From positions 1,798,001 through 1,862,000 of the forward strand of contig NZ_CP053085.1 of assembly GCF_013004105.1 (NCBI RefSeq): DNA of 64,000 bases, in the 5' to 3' direction. The translations under genes and the position numbers were made by a program. Below are positions 20,398 through 26,599 of the stretch, in pieces (within the stretch, counting starts at the first letter, position 1; each line of letters begins with the position of its first letter). Origin of the DNA: Gemmatimonas groenlandica. GTDB taxonomy: Bacteria; Gemmatimonadota; Gemmatimonadetes; Gemmatimonadales; Gemmatimonadaceae. Under the pieces are notes generated by a model. The model searched no databases, was not told where the DNA came from, and worked only from the letters and a program-made list of their open reading frames with translations.

Positions 20398-20411
20398 CGC
20401 GTAGTTACGGG
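20391..20411. terminator. Hairpin spanning two convergent stop codons
   Basis: The 8-bp arms cccgtaac and gttacggg flank the 5-base loop gcgta. The left arm contains the TAA of the SDR gene and the right arm contains the TAA of the minus-strand ligase gene. The pairing is perfect and could act as a compact two-way terminator, though there is no T-run on either side. Confidence 0.45.
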
Positions 20412-21625
20412 ACTGACTGCCCTCGCACCGCCGACAACGGGGCAGTCGGGGTGGGCATCGATCCCGGAACAGCCGCCTCACGTGAGTTCGCCGACTCGAG
20501 CGGCGGACCAAGGAACGGCTCGCATACCCCCTCGGCCGTCTCGCGGATGAGCTGGTCGACGACCGCCCGCAGATCTCCAGTTCGCGCATACGTCGCCAAC
20601 TGACGCTGGGCGCTCGACCCTTCGTCGAGGATGCGAAACGCATACTCGACTTCCTTTCGCGTACCGAGCTCGTCGAGCACGTCGTCGAGGAACCACTCCA
20701 CCAGCTCGCGGATCAGCACCGGTGCCGGCAGCTCCTCCTTCTTGCCGAAGTCGATCAGCTTGCCGCCGAGTCCCCAACGGACGGCGCGCCACTTGTTCTC
20801 TTCAATGAGATCCTGGGCGTACACGCGGAACGTCATGTTGTCGCGACGCAGCTTCCACATCTTGGCGACAACGGCCTGCAGAATGGCCGCGATGCATACC
20901 GCCTCATCGACCTTCGTGTTCACATCGCAGGCGCGGAACTCGAGCGTCGGGTAGATGTGGTGCGGGCGCACGTCCCACCAGATCTTCGATCCATCCGGAA
21001 TGCTGCGCGTTTTCACCAGCGTGTCCACGAGATCGGCGTAGTCGCCCCATCCGTTCAGGATGCGCGGTACACCGGTGCGCGGAAAGTTCTTGAACACGAT
21101 GCTGCGATAGGAATGCAGCCCCGTGTTGCGACCGAACCAGAACGGCGACGATGTGGACAAACACAAAATGTGAGGCAGGATGTAACGCGCGGCGTTCAGG
21201 CAGTCGATCCGGAATTCCGGATCTTCAATGCCCACATGCACATGCGTCCCGAAAATGAGCAGGCGGTGGGCCAGGTCCTGCAGCTCCGCCTTCACGCCGA
21301 GGTATCGCTCCTTCGGCGTCATCTCCTGATTCATCCAGTTGGAGAAGGGATGCGTACCGGCCGAGGCGATGGTCAGGCCATGCTGACCGGCCGCCTTGAT
21401 GACCAACCCACGCAGCTTCACCAGCTCCGAGCGCAGTTCCGCAATCGAGGAGCAGACCTTCGTGCCGATCTCCACCTGACATTGGTGGAGCTCAGCTTTG
21501 ACGTCGGCCAACTGTGCGTCGTTGCTCGACACCAACGCATCGAACCCGGGCGTGAGGTCACGCGTGACGGGGTCGATGATCTGGTACTCTTCCTCGATTC
21601 CGACCGTTAGGCTCGGAGCGCGCAT
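20405..21625 (-). CDS. Carboxylate-amine ligase, GCS2 family (YbdK-like)
   Basis: Encodes 406 residues from an ATG that directly follows the GATase stop (TAA then ATG, no gap). The family joins a carboxylate, often glutamate, to an amine using ATP. The GCS2 start motif GIEEEYQIID is at 9-18; HQCQVEIGTKVC, FGTHVHVGIEDPE and WWDVRPHHIYPTLEFRACD follow. E. coli YbdK has weak gamma-glutamylcysteine synthetase activity, so this could make a gamma-glutamyl compound. It is the last gene of a run that also contains a GATase and two ATP-grasp-like proteins, so its product may be modified by them. The actual substrate is unknown. Confidence 0.88.
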   Translation of the reverse strand: MRAPSLTVGIEEEYQIIDPVTRDLTPGFDALVSSNDAQLADVKAELHQCQVEIGTKVCSSIAELRSELVKLRGLVIKAAGQHGLTIASAGTHPFSNWMNQEMTPKERYLGVKAELQDLAHRLLIFGTHVHVGIEDPEFRIDCLNAARYILPHILCLSTSSPFWFGRNTGLHSYRSIVFKNFPRTGVPRILNGWGDYADLVDTLVKTRSIPDGSKIWWDVRPHHIYPTLEFRACDVNTKVDEAVCIAAILQAVVAKMWKLRRDNMTFRVYAQDLIEENKWRAVRWGLGGKLIDFGKKEELPAPVLIRELVEWFLDDVLDELGTRKEVEYAFRILDEGSSAQRQLATYARTGDLRAVVDQLIRETAEGVCEPFLGPPLESANSREAAVPGSMPTPTAPLSAVRGQSVP

Positions 21626-22423
21626 TTAACCCCCCACGCCCACACGGGACGTGCTGTTCGCCGTGGACCAATCCATAGCGGCACGAATGAAGCCGCCGAA
21701 CAGATGTCGGGTATGTGGATCCGCCATCTCGAGCACTTCCGGGTGCCATTGCACCCCGATCAGAAACGCGTCACCGTCGCCCTCGACTGCCTCGATCAAC
21801 CCGTCATCGGCGGTCGCCGAGGCCACGAGATGCTGCCCCAGCTGCTTGATGCCCTGATGATGCATGCTGTTCACGGGCGCCCGTGTGGATTCCAGCAACC
21901 GTGACAGCTTTGTGTCCGCCACAATATCGACCTCGTGCGCGAGGTGGTCGCGCTCGAAGCCCGCCGTCGGAAAAAAATCGTGCTTGTTGAAAGACGGCTT
22001 TTGTGATGCGAGGTCCTGCCAGAGCGTACCGCCCGAGGCCACGTTGATCACCTGCAGACCACGGCAGAGACCGAAGACGGGCTTACCGTCCTCGATGGCC
22101 CATCGCACCAATTGCAGCTCCACGCGGTCGCGCGCGGGGTCCAGATTGCCACATTCCTTCCGGACCGTCTCGCCGTACTCGGCCGGATTGATATCGACGC
22201 CACCCGGAATCAGGATGCCGTCGAGCCGCTCGTAGATCTCGCGAAGTGTGAGCAGATCGTCGTCGAGCAGCGGGATCATCCAGGGCACGGCACCCACCAT
22301 GGTGGCGGCCAGGAAGTAGCGCTGATTCATCACCCACGACGATGGCAATCCGGGTGGAATGCCGTCGATCGAGTGCAGCGTTTGTGTGGTCAGCCCGATC
22401 ACCGGGCGTTTCAAAGACGACAT
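21626..22423 (-). CDS. Class I glutamine-amidotransferase-like gamma-glutamyl hydrolase (PuuD-like)
   Basis: Encodes 265 residues. Its ATG overlaps the stop of the upstream ATP-grasp-like gene by one base (TGATG). The C26-type triad is present: C120 in FGLCRGLQ, H227 and E229 in GVQWHPE. PGGVDINPAEYGE is typical of the gamma-glutamyl-GABA hydrolase group, and HHQGI is kept. The family splits gamma-glutamyl amides or moves ammonia from glutamine. Lying between a ligase that could form gamma-glutamyl bonds and two ATP-grasp proteins, it may cleave or trim a pathway intermediate. There is no signal peptide. Confidence 0.9.
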   Translation of the reverse strand: MSSLKRPVIGLTTQTLHSIDGIPPGLPSSWVMNQRYFLAATMVGAVPWMIPLLDDDLLTLREIYERLDGILIPGGVDINPAEYGETVRKECGNLDPARDRVELQLVRWAIEDGKPVFGLCRGLQVINVASGGTLWQDLASQKPSFNKHDFFPTAGFERDHLAHEVDIVADTKLSRLLESTRAPVNSMHHQGIKQLGQHLVASATADDGLIEAVEGDGDAFLIGVQWHPEVLEMADPHTRHLFGGFIRAAMDWSTANSTSRVGVGG

Positions 22424-23775
22424 CAGCGTGGTTCAACAAGAAAGGTAGGAACGTTCGAGCCACCGCCGGCGGTGACGTTGAGCAGCGGATCGGTCGCAAT
22501 GCGCGTGAGACACCCAGACATCGTAATGCCGTCCGCGAGAAAGGGCGCGGTATCGAGCATGCGTTCTCCAAGATGTAGCGCGCCGTCGGTCCAGGCCGGC
22601 CACAATTCGCTGGGGATCTCCACCCGCTCCTGCACGATATATGGCTCGGCAAGGGCCGTCGCGATCGCCGCTGCCCACTCGGCGTCGTTCACCGTCCAGC
22701 CCAGCACGATCCCCTTTCCGCCGTACTCATCGTTGGGCTTGAGCACGAGCGTCGCGCGGTTGGCGGCGGTGAATTCCAGGAGATCGACGCGACTGTCGCC
22801 ATACTGCGTGTGTCGCGCCTGCACCACACGTGTCCACGGCACATGGGCGGAGACGGCTGCCCGTTCGTCGGCGGTGAGCAGCGGCGCCTGCCGTTCGTCA
22901 CTTAACACGGCAAGTGAGGCCTTCTTATGTAACATCTTGCAGCGAAACGGGTTCACCATGCACACCGCACCTTCACGCACAGCTCGGACGACGGGTGAAT
23001 CGAGCCCTTCACGCGTCACCAGTTCGTCGATCAATACGCGCTTGTAGATCAGCGTGACGTGCTTGCCACCGATCATCAGCTTGCCGTTCGTGTACTCCGC
23101 GTCACGCGGGTCGCCGATGAACGCGTCGATCCCGAGCGCTTTGAACTCGCGCTCGAAGAGCACGAACTCGCTGTACGTCGGCACTTCCTTCCAATCGAGA
23201 ATGACGATCGTGGGCGCCTCGCGCACCCCGCGCCAGCGGTAGTACGCGTTGAGGAGCGAGTGCACGACCGACGGCGCGGCGGGCAGCGGCACGGCGACAT
23301 GCGTCCGGCTGAACTCATGCATGACCGGCAACGACAGAAACGCGCGCGACAACGCATCGTTGTATGCCGCCCCAGCCGGCGTCTCCGCGTTGAATTCCGT
23401 GAACTTGAGCCCGCCCCGCCCTTCCGCGAAAAAGGCATCGAGGCGGGAGGTCGGGCTGGCGACGTCGAAGCCGGGGTCGGCATGGATCAGCTGCTCTTCC
23501 CAAGCCGTCAACCCGAACTGGGCACGTAAAGCCGAGTCCGCCATGGCAGCCACGCGGACCTTTTCGAACGCCGATCCGACCAGGGCACAGGCGCGGGCCA
23601 GCTGCTGGTATTGCCCGAGACCAAGGAAGCGCGGGCGTAAGACACTGCACAACGCGCGCTCTCCAAAAAAGAGCCCGTCATGCCGGAGCTGCCGTTCAAG
23701 GACTTCGGCGCTCGCCTGCGCAATCGCGCGATCCTGCAGCGCATCGTGGTACCGCGCGATCGCGGATGTGGACAT
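22423..23775 (-). CDS. ATP-grasp-like ligase, possibly circularly permuted
   Basis: Encodes 450 residues with no signal peptide. FTEFNAETPAG at 125-135 and VTLIYKRVLIDEL at 240-252 recall circularly permuted ATP-grasp and glutathionylspermidine-synthase-like proteins. The nucleotide segment is LVLKPNDEYGGKGIVLGW, with K346 and a flexible glycine loop at 351-355, followed by YIVQERVEIP. The family makes amide bonds through acyl phosphates. The C-terminal half ends MSGCLTRIATDPLLNVTAGGGS, resembling the metal and nucleotide site of ATP-grasp folds. It is coupled to the GATase downstream. The family assignment comes from motifs; the permutation is suggested, not shown. Confidence 0.7.
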   Translation of the reverse strand: MSTSAIARYHDALQDRAIAQASAEVLERQLRHDGLFFGERALCSVLRPRFLGLGQYQQLARACALVGSAFEKVRVAAMADSALRAQFGLTAWEEQLIHADPGFDVASPTSRLDAFFAEGRGGLKFTEFNAETPAGAAYNDALSRAFLSLPVMHEFSRTHVAVPLPAAPSVVHSLLNAYYRWRGVREAPTIVILDWKEVPTYSEFVLFEREFKALGIDAFIGDPRDAEYTNGKLMIGGKHVTLIYKRVLIDELVTREGLDSPVVRAVREGAVCMVNPFRCKMLHKKASLAVLSDERQAPLLTADERAAVSAHVPWTRVVQARHTQYGDSRVDLLEFTAANRATLVLKPNDEYGGKGIVLGWTVNDAEWAAAIATALAEPYIVQERVEIPSELWPAWTDGALHLGERMLDTAPFLADGITMSGCLTRIATDPLLNVTAGGGSNVPTFLVEPR

Positions 23776-23830
23776 AAACTGTCGCTAAAGTTTGTGATCA
23801 ACCAACACGCCGTCGTGTACACATGAGTAT

Positions 23831-23898
23831 GGAGTATGGGGTACGGAGTACTCCGTAATACGGTACTCCGTACTCCGGTACTCCCTACCCCGTACTCC
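23831..23898. repeat. Inverted and tandem GTACTCC repeat between two ATP-grasp genes
   Basis: Twenty-base arms at 23831-23850 and 23879-23898 are complementary at 18 of 20 positions. Inside lies the perfect palindrome tacggagtactccgta (23842-23857) and more copies of tactccg. The element fills most of the 130-bp gap between codirectional genes, so the transcript would carry it as a large hairpin. It could be an attenuator or terminator, or a dispersed intergenic repeat. Confidence 0.7.
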
Positions 23899-23905
23899 CA
23901 ACCCC

Positions 23906-24835
23906 TTACTTCGCTGTTGTCGTTTCTCCAATCGCCACACCCTTCGGCTCCTTTCGCGGCGCCGTCGCCAGCTTGATCGCGAGATCCGCCATGTGCTCCA
24001 CGACCCATTCGAAGTAGGTCGGCGTGAGCGAATAGATATCCATGTCGGGAGCCGGGTTCATGAAGTCGATGGCGTAGGGTATGCCATCCTTCACGGCGAA
24101 CTCGACGGTGTTCATGTCGTACCCCAAGGCATTGCACAACGTGAGCGAGTCCTTGATGCAGCGGGCCTCGAGTTCCTTGCCCAGATAGCCCGGGTCCGGG
24201 ATGTAGCGGCGCTCGCCGGGGTCGTACGGCATCGGCAGCACTTCTTCGCGCCCGAGCGCCATGCAGCGCACGTAGGCGTCCCATTTGATGAACTCCTGCA
24301 CCACCATGGTGAGCAGTCCACTGTTGTTGTAATGGTGGATCAGCTCCTCCATCGAGTCGCAGATGTACACATCGCGCCAGCCGCCGCCGTGGGCGTCCTT
24401 GAGGACGCAGGGGAAGCCGATGTATTCGGCGACGCCCTTCCAGTCGAGCGGATAGGCCAGGTTGCGCAGCGACTCCGTATGCGAGATCCCAGGGATGTAG
24501 TCCTTGTTGGGCAGGACCATTGTCTTCGGGTGCGCCACGCCGTTCTGGATGGCTACCGTGGCGTCGTAGAACTTGTCATCGGCGGACCACATGAAGGGGT
24601 TGTTGACGACGGTCGTCCCCATCCGCGTCGCGTGCTTCAGGAAGGTGCGGTAGAACCCGACCTCATGCGAGATGCGGTCAATGATCAGCGAATACGGGAC
24701 ATCCTGGCCCATTCGCGTGGCGTCGAGCGTGATGTAGTCCGCGGTGACACCGGACTGCCGGCGCGCCACCGCTTCGAGAAAGGCGGGAGGAAACGACCAT
24801 TCCCGGCCGACGAGCAATCCGATCCGTGGTTCCAT
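23906..24835 (-). CDS. ATP-grasp-domain protein (RimK/D-Ala-ligase-like)
   Basis: Encodes 309 residues. The ATG at 24835 is chosen because MEPRIGLLVGREWSFPPAF starts a typical pre-ATP-grasp domain; the in-frame extension upstream covers the DnaA-box region and looks non-coding. The ATP-grasp core shows FPCVLKDAHGGGWRD (K146, glycine loop 150-152), VVQEFIKWDAYVRC (E181) and the metal site NTVEF/IDFMNPAPD (E245, D257, N260). It should activate a carboxylate with ATP and join it to an amine. It is the first gene of the leftward cluster. The product has no signal peptide. Substrates are unknown. Confidence 0.85.
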   Translation of the reverse strand: MEPRIGLLVGREWSFPPAFLEAVARRQSGVTADYITLDATRMGQDVPYSLIIDRISHEVGFYRTFLKHATRMGTTVVNNPFMWSADDKFYDATVAIQNGVAHPKTMVLPNKDYIPGISHTESLRNLAYPLDWKGVAEYIGFPCVLKDAHGGGWRDVYICDSMEELIHHYNNSGLLTMVVQEFIKWDAYVRCMALGREEVLPMPYDPGERRYIPDPGYLGKELEARCIKDSLTLCNALGYDMNTVEFAVKDGIPYAIDFMNPAPDMDIYSLTPTYFEWVVEHMADLAIKLATAPRKEPKGVAIGETTTAK

Positions 24836-25287
24836 CGACACGTCTGTTCTCCTGATGAGGGGCGCGTAATCACGGGAGAATGCGCCCAAATGAGCGGCTC
24901 CGCCATGGTTCCGCGTGTTTCGTCGCCGGAACGGCTGGGCTCGCCCGATCGACAGCGAAGCCAGCCGTGGGGATGTGTTAGCAAACAACGGAAAAGCACT
25001 TTTGTGACAACGGGCAATGTGGACAAAGTGCCCATCCGCACCGCAAAACGGAGGGGCATCACGGAACCACTTATCCACACGACGCCTGGGGGGATCTTCC
25101 CCCGCAATGCGGACTTACCGAGTTATCCACACACCTTTCAACGTATATCAACAACTAGATCAACAACTTAGCCTCATCCGGTCGTATTGCGCGGGCGCTC
25201 GGATCGTCATAACATCACCGCCCGCCGCTGATCCGACGCAAGTCGAAATACCGGTGCTCACGTTTCTGCCTTCATTGGAAATCGCTC
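24836..25287. other. Gene-free segment with DnaA-box array and AT-rich direct repeat (candidate origin)
   Basis: This 452-bp gap between divergent genes contains two perfect DnaA boxes TTATCCACA at 25071-25079 and 25123-25131, and a reverse-strand near-match (TTGTCCACA) at 25019-25027. The three lie exactly 52 bp apart, about five helical turns. Weaker matches lie near 24968 and 25174. Just right of the last box, 25138-25170 is AT-rich for this genome and carries atcaacaact twice, 12 bp apart, like an unwinding element. Genes to the left run mainly leftward and those to the right are mixed. No dnaA gene is in view, so a DnaA-regulated promoter or titration site is the alternative. Confidence 0.55.
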
Positions 25288-25707
25288 ATGCACGTCGTCG
25301 CCTGTAACGCCCCACTCGGCACCATCGACCCGGCGCCGCTCACATCGCTGCCTATCAACATGGGCGTGGAGAGTGACCGGTTGACCGCGTTCTGGAACAG
25401 CGACGACCAGTATCTGGTCTGCGTCGAGGGCGAAACCGGGACCGCATGGTATCGCATCGAAGCGGAAGCATCGGCGCCGGCCACCGATGAAGCCACACGC
25501 GTCGCGATCGGCGCCATGATGGCCGACATCCTGCCCCTCGGGGCGGGGCGCATCGCCTTTCCCGTGGGGAGCAGCGGACGCCGCGTGTATCGCGTCTGGC
25601 GCGCCTCCAGAGGCGCAGCCAGAGGCAACACCAAGGGCGCGTCGAAGGCAGGACGGACTAGAATCCTGGGAGTTCTAGCTGGGCGGTCACGCCGCCTGCC
25701 AGCGTAA
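25288..25707 (+). CDS. Hypothetical protein
   Basis: Encodes 139 residues from the ATG at 25288, just downstream of the DnaA-box segment. I recognise no family. Codon third positions are GC-rich as in neighbouring genes, which supports coding. The first 100 residues look like a small alpha/beta domain (FWNSDDQYLVCVEGETGTAWYRIEAEAS); the last 35 are basic and disordered (SRGAARGNTKGASKAGRTR), suggesting possible nucleic-acid contact. The final 50 bases overlap tail-to-tail with the minus-strand gene that ends at 25658. There is no signal peptide or membrane segment. Position beside a candidate origin is suggestive, but no function can be assigned. Confidence 0.55.
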   Translation: MHVVACNAPLGTIDPAPLTSLPINMGVESDRLTAFWNSDDQYLVCVEGETGTAWYRIEAEASAPATDEATRVAIGAMMADILPLGAGRIAFPVGSSGRRVYRVWRASRGAARGNTKGASKAGRTRILGVLAGRSRRLPA

Positions 25708-26599
25708 CGCCGGCAGCTTGCAGCCACGCCAGCAATACGTCCTGTCCATGATCGCCAGCCATGGCGGAGCGCGCCGCGCTCAGGTGCAGCTTGAACTCGC
25801 CCGACACATCGGGCAGAGTGCGCCGCAGCACGGCCACCGTGAGCAGCTCGGTCGCGTCAGCCAGATGTCGGATCGCGAACTCCGTCATGCGGGCGCGCAG
25901 CGCGGCCGTGTTGAGGAGCGGTCCTTCACCGGGCACCTCGTGGTCGGCCCGACGCTCACGGAATGCCGCCAATCGACTACGCGTGGCGGAGAGCATCGGC
26001 AGTTCCTCGGCGGCGTTATCGGCGTGCGCTGCCACGGGGGCGCCCATCAACCCCAGCCACGCCATCCAGAGCGTGCCCCGGGCGTAGGCTTCCCACGGCT
26101 CATGCTCGAGCCGAAGGGCCGCCTGATTCACGGTCTCGGTGACCTGATTGCGCACCGCCCACCAGCGGATGTAGGCGTCGGTCTGTCGCGACACCAGCGC
26201 CAAGGCCCCCAACTTGAGGGCCCACTTGACCGCCGATTCCCCATCGTCGGTGGGGGCTCGCAGTGCCGCCGAGCAGCGGAAGGCGCGGGCCGCACCGAGG
26301 GCCAGCACGGCTTGGGCGAGATCGCGGCCGGCGCTGGGAGCCGGCTGCAGCGCCGCATCGAGCTGTCCGAGTGCCGCCAATTCGTACGCCGTCCCCAGCA
26401 GTGCCAGTCCGTCGGCAATCGGTTCGCCGAGTCCGTCCCCGGGGCGAAGGGCCGCAGCGTCCGCCCGTTCCAGCAGCAGGGCGCGCCGCTCGGTCGGGAT
26501 CGCGGCGACAGCCCAGTGATCGTCGAGGGTGGTTCTGGCCAGTTCCGCCAGATCCCTCGCCGCAAGATCACGTTCCGCTATCGGGGTGAGGACGTGCAT
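25658..26599 (-). CDS. Hypothetical alanine-rich helical protein
   Basis: Encodes 313 residues from the ATG at 26599. I do not recognise a family. The sequence is rich in Ala and Leu and appears all-helical, with segments such as RDLAELARTTLDDHWAV, LLGTAYELAALGQLDAAL and TEFAIRHLADATELLTVAVL; helical-repeat folds are possible. There is no signal peptide and no clear transmembrane segment, so it is probably cytosolic. Its 3' end overlaps the converging small gene by 50 bases. Upstream is a 343-bp gap shared with the divergent gene at 26943. Coding looks sound from length and third-position GC; function is unknown. Confidence 0.65.
   Translation of the reverse strand: MHVLTPIAERDLAARDLAELARTTLDDHWAVAAIPTERRALLLERADAAALRPGDGLGEPIADGLALLGTAYELAALGQLDAALQPAPSAGRDLAQAVLALGAARAFRCSAALRAPTDDGESAVKWALKLGALALVSRQTDAYIRWWAVRNQVTETVNQAALRLEHEPWEAYARGTLWMAWLGLMGAPVAAHADNAAEELPMLSATRSRLAAFRERRADHEVPGEGPLLNTAALRARMTEFAIRHLADATELLTVAVLRRTLPDVSGEFKLHLSAARSAMAGDHGQDVLLAWLQAAGVTLAGGVTAQLELPGF

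Follow-up and report, generated by a model that had tools for sequence, protein, structure and literature searches.

The closest described case is the promoter region of sda in B. subtilis, where DnaA acts as a transcription activator, stimulating the gene directly from an upstream box array (PMC4447404, PMC8203912); in general, transcription can be either stimulated or repressed by DnaA (PMC8203912). Other clusters outside oriC in B. subtilis (ywcI/vpr, ywlC, trmE, yydA and gcp) are high-affinity multi-box regions that lie mostly upstream of genes, several of which DnaA apparently represses (PMC4447404). In Escherichia coli, the loci datA, DARS1 and DARS2 are box clusters away from the origin, with functionally important spacing and a conserved map position (PMC4585315). 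Finally, origins with a basal unwinding system have clustered DnaA boxes beside an AT-rich stretch, in the order box, short spacer, DnaA-trio run (PMC8287927).

The locus described here lies in a window of 64,000 nucleotides (1798001-1862000) of a single 5,179,092-base Gemmatimonas chromosome (G000) and resembles each of these systems in part. Like the sda region, it is a box array upstream of a small-protein gene and far from oriC; its box arrangement is its own, we claim no kinship of its 139-aa gene to sda, and regulation by DnaA is in this case deduced. Like datA and the DARS loci, it is a box cluster with conserved spacing that is not an origin, whereas the E. coli loci exert their control as non-coding DNA with helpers such as IHF and the Gemmatimonas cluster goes with the promoter region of a single gene. 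B. subtilis has several strong clusters per genome, whereas one of such strength was found in Gemmatimonas. The locus shares with oriC the clustered boxes and the adjacent AT-rich stretch, but the CTA-type DnaA-trio run is found between dnaA and dnaN instead.

The DnaA-box array and its conservation

The 9-mer TTATCCACA is the standard DnaA box, and the DnaA of Gemmatimonas carries the usual box-recognition motif, GGRDHSTVIHS. The sequence-only reading had reported two perfect copies, at 25071 and 25123, and had proposed a genome-wide count; both copies are where it placed them, and among the eight perfect sites of the whole 5.18 Mb chromosome they form the sole close pair. From eight sites approximately 0.0006 pairs as close as this are expected by chance, and from the 209 sites with at most one mismatch chromosome-wide approximately 0.002 triples like boxes 1-3, which excludes chance as the source of the cluster. 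The near match on the opposite strand, given before as starting at 25019, is real (TTGTCCACA) but begins one base earlier, and as a consequence the supposed spacing of 52 and 52 bp holds for boxes 2-3 and becomes 53 bp for boxes 1-2 (Table 1). Weak matches had also been proposed at 24968 and 25174; neither is a DnaA box at up to two mismatches, and the only other 9-mers within that distance are ATATCAACA (25145) and TTAGCCTCA (25168). The AT-rich 10-bp direct repeat (ATCAACAACT) does occur twice, but both copies belong, as rungs, to a ladder of 9-mers that resemble the box. The A+T content of 25123-25175 is 62%, against a genome G+C of approximately 65%, and the gap of 24836-25287 is free of genes and flanked by divergent ones, as had been described.

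Table 1. Positions of the array, its neighbours and the sites near dnaA (window coordinates unless marked G000)
Feature	Position	Strand	Remarks
Divergent neighbour, RimK-like ATP-grasp gene	23906..24835	-	weak family match
Conserved TTTGTGA	25001..25007	+	17 bp ahead of box 1 in 19/19 congeners
DnaA box 1	25018..25026	-	TTGTCCACA; TGTGGANAA retained at the same place in 19/19 congeners
DnaA box 2	25071..25079	+	TTATCCACA; 53 bp past box 1; TTNTCCACA in 18/19 congeners
Conserved ACTTA	25113..25117	+	10 bp ahead of box 3
DnaA box 3	25123..25131	+	TTATCCACA; 52 bp past box 2
Ladder of weak box-like 9-mers	25135..25165	+	CTTTCAACG 25135, ATATCAACA 25145, AGATCAACA 25157; conserved columns
Conserved CTTAG, past the ladder	25167..25171	+	mean pairwise identity 96%
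Promoter-like pair	25187..25215	+	TTGCGC 25187-25192, 17 bp, TAACAT 25210-25215; consensus reading only
139-aa gene, presumed target	25288..25707	+	orthologues in the genus, relatives in six further genera; codon-position pattern typical of a coding gene
dnaA-dnaN intergenic region	G000 about 3,687,370-3,687,620		CCCACA/TCCACA, CTGCTACTAC, AT-rich
dnaA-promoter box	G000 3,689,125-3,689,133		same place in four relatives

A scan for box scores over 2.8 Mb sampled from three genomes put the window cluster first, at 53, with the next independent place at 38; the matrix was built from this locus and its relatives and hence favours it, which leaves the plain site counts unaffected. Another cluster, at 1,160,482-1,160,549 (L001 1472-1549), packs one perfect box and two one-mismatch boxes into 68 bp; it lies within an SDR-like coding frame and was rejected.

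The intergenic region was matched in 28 of the 29 other genomes of the genus, and spacings were compared in 19 congeners, which belong to one genus and hence are not independent. The distance between boxes 1 and 2 is exactly 53 bp in all 19, and that between boxes 2 and 3 is 52 bp in 17, the remaining two genomes having 51 or 53 bp. Measured from start to start, the left half reads TTTGTGA-17-box 1 (reverse)-53-box 2-52-box 3 and the right half box 3-23-TATCNACA-14-TCAACAACTTAG-27-TTGCG-23-TAACAT, the exceptions to the right of box 3 being one genome with 22 bp between box 3 and TATCNACA and one with 26 bp between TCAACAACTTAG and TTGCG. The boxes have a mean pairwise identity of 0.92-0.93, against 0.44-0.50 for the spacers that separate them; the ladder reaches 0.70 and the promoter-like stretch, which has no indels in the 19 genomes, 0.85. 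The DNA toward the left gene is not conserved in length, unlike the box-to-promoter distances. Near-fixed spacing over unconserved DNA would be the expected trace of a phased protein-DNA assembly, and the phasing of the array with the promoter-like hexamers (a consensus reading) in 19/19 congeners agrees with what is expected of a DnaA-regulated promoter.

The cores of the ladder lie 12, 22 and 34 bp beyond the core of box 3 and on its strand, and successive 9-mers are 1-3 bases apart; the rung at 25145, ATATCAACA in G000, is usually NTATCCACA in relatives. The conserved TTTGTGA is possibly a site for a second factor. An Rfam search of 24800-25750 returned no family.

Association with the 139-aa gene

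The gene downstream of the array has orthologues within Gemmatimonas and relatives in six further genera of the family; the named relatives of its product come from Gemmatimonas and from unclassified Gemmatimonadetes genomes. Within the genus the protein measures 119-144 aa and combines a conserved core with a basic tail. No match was found in Pfam, NCBIfam or PDB; the structure prediction was unreliable (mean pLDDT 56), and a fold search with it gave no meaningful match.

An element model made from sequence only (158 positions) was searched in the genomes of the family. Its single match in G000, even at E<=10, is the window locus. Among 148 family genomes the gene was found in 27 and the element in 31, with both in 26 genomes from six genera, so that the array accompanies its presumed target in 26 of the 27 gene-bearing genomes. 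In all 27 gene-element pairs the two share a strand and the element ends 60-140 bp upstream of the gene. The genome G062 has two gene copies approximately 5.5 kb apart, each preceded by an element of its own, and a 28th pair was found in G012. A weak gene match without the element occurs in G069. Conversely, G032, G088, G110, G079 and G144 have an element match and no recognizable gene at E<=10; there the element may stand alone or the gene may have diverged. Outside Gemmatimonas and genus g38 the element model gives matches with modest E-values (about 1e-8 to 4e-3), but the positions of these matches beside the gene lend independent support. Element and orphan gene have travelled together through a bacterial family.

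On the other side of the gap, the divergent neighbour belongs to a run of genes on the minus strand (20405-24835) that also includes a circularly permuted ATP-grasp gene and, as judged by eye, glutamate-cysteine ligase-like and class I glutamine amidotransferase/peptidase C26-like genes; the run is possibly a peptide-ligating cluster.

Probable location of the replication origin

The proposal of a replication origin at the locus, away from dnaA and to be recognized by a change of sign in the GC skew, was refuted. The cumulative skew of G000, sampled at even intervals in 80 stretches of 20 kb that cover 31% of the genome, and not continuously, has its minimum at 3.63-3.69 Mb, where dnaA lies (3,687,621-3,689,039), and peaks near 1.36-1.42 Mb. 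The locus lies at 1.823 Mb, 36% of the chromosome away from dnaA, on the falling arm. In G021, a complete genome of 4,636,964 bases in which dnaA is close to base 1, the skew climbs from the vicinity of dnaA until approximately 1.9 Mb and then falls back, and the locus, at 1.63 Mb, is again not at an extreme. The stretches sampled from G029 reach 2.23 Mb. Paired parS-like sites were found approximately 42 kb (G000), 38 kb (G021) and 40 kb (G029) from dnaA, with none near the locus in these three complete genomes. Both 16S genes of G000 (1,099,573, plus strand, and 1,468,605, minus strand) point away from dnaA and toward the skew maximum; they lie near the presumed terminus and not near the origin.

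In G000 and five relatives the gap between dnaA and dnaN has box-like CCCACA/TCCACA motifs, weaker than the boxes of the window, followed by a DnaA-trio-like run (CTGCTACTAC), an order of box, short spacer and trio run that matches the published basal unwinding system (PMC8287927); it is conserved and AT-rich, with 52-58% A+T in the richest 100 bp in the five relatives. At the locus itself no CTA-type run was found, just a loose match to CAACAACTA. The chromosomal origin of Gemmatimonas, for which a literature search gave no relevant report, is likely the dnaA-dnaN intergenic region, judging from these signals. The rpmH-dnaA gap was rejected as an origin: in five genomes it has a single perfect TTATCCACA, within the promoter-like TTGACT...TACCTT of dnaA. 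The placement of this box suggests autoregulation of dnaA, and it would mean that a promoter box is in use in Gemmatimonas.

An origin at the window locus could still draw on its strong clustered boxes beside an AT-rich stretch and on their conservation in the genus, yet with the locus off the skew extreme in two genomes, the parS pair and trio region at dnaA and the 16S genes directed away from dnaA we regard it as extremely improbable.

Possible function of the array

The sequence-only reading had offered, as its alternative to an origin, a DnaA-titrating or DnaA-regulated site, and this is supported. Probably, though with a good deal of room for other readings, the element serves as a regulatory array to which DnaA binds and which controls the 139-aa gene; regulation is favoured over titration since throughout the family the element goes with a single downstream gene. 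The three strong boxes, approximately five helical turns apart and so expected on one side of the double helix, would be occupied by DnaA, which from box 3 would extend along the weaker ladder sites toward the promoter-like sequence and its -35 element. Bound in this way, it would alter transcription of the gene. Activation is the more likely sign given that the array precedes the -35, in contrast to the box inside the dnaA promoter.

The main competing reading, a rather unlikely one, is that the element serves mainly as a DnaA sink or DnaA-modulating locus of the datA/DARS type, which limits or resets DnaA activity and to which the gene is secondary. That the strongest box cluster found is here, with weaker boxes at dnaA-dnaN, and that strong and weak boxes stand at fixed spacing as in datA and DARS are in line with it, as are the five genomes in which the element has no recognizable gene beside it. 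The distance of the locus from dnaA is also alike in the three genomes that are complete, at 36.0%, 35.2% and 38.6% of the chromosome, which recalls datA and DARS in E. coli (PMC4585315), but this similarity may only be a matter of general synteny. Against a sink stand the strict same-strand adjacency to one gene in 26 genomes of six genera, the duplication along with that gene in G062 and the nearly indel-free phasing into the promoter-like sequence. The two functions are not mutually exclusive. It is also conceivable, and in our view quite improbable, that the array is read by a factor other than DnaA that prefers TTNTCCACA, such as a dedicated regulator of the 139-aa gene. Such a factor could account for the freedom of the third box base (A, T, G or C) and for the conserved TTTGTGA, ACTTA and CTTAG, which DnaA leaves unexplained; however, the 9-mer is the standard box, the DnaA of Gemmatimonas has the standard recognition motif and the identical 9-mer stands in the dnaA promoter.

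In a little-studied phylum, the strongest DnaA-box cluster found fronts an orphan gene and not the origin. This singles out the 139-aa gene as a candidate cell-cycle factor under the control of DnaA, with a promoter that is directly testable. More tentatively, and with clear doubt on our part, array and gene might form one replication-control module of the Gemmatimonadaceae, which would sense DnaA (perhaps its ATP form) and drive a new regulator, of a checkpoint or of initiation, with feedback to replication or the cell cycle.

As a separate observation, a protein of 591-592 aa (L010 265-2040, minus strand, at about 1.714 Mb in G000; L193 1489-3267 in G021) matches PF00308 (DnaA-type AAA+) twice and has no match to the DNA-binding domain of DnaA. 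Its score exceeds the DnaA equivalog cut-off, and it may be annotated as DnaA in error. Its gene lies approximately 108 kb from the locus in G000 and approximately 60 kb from it in relatives.
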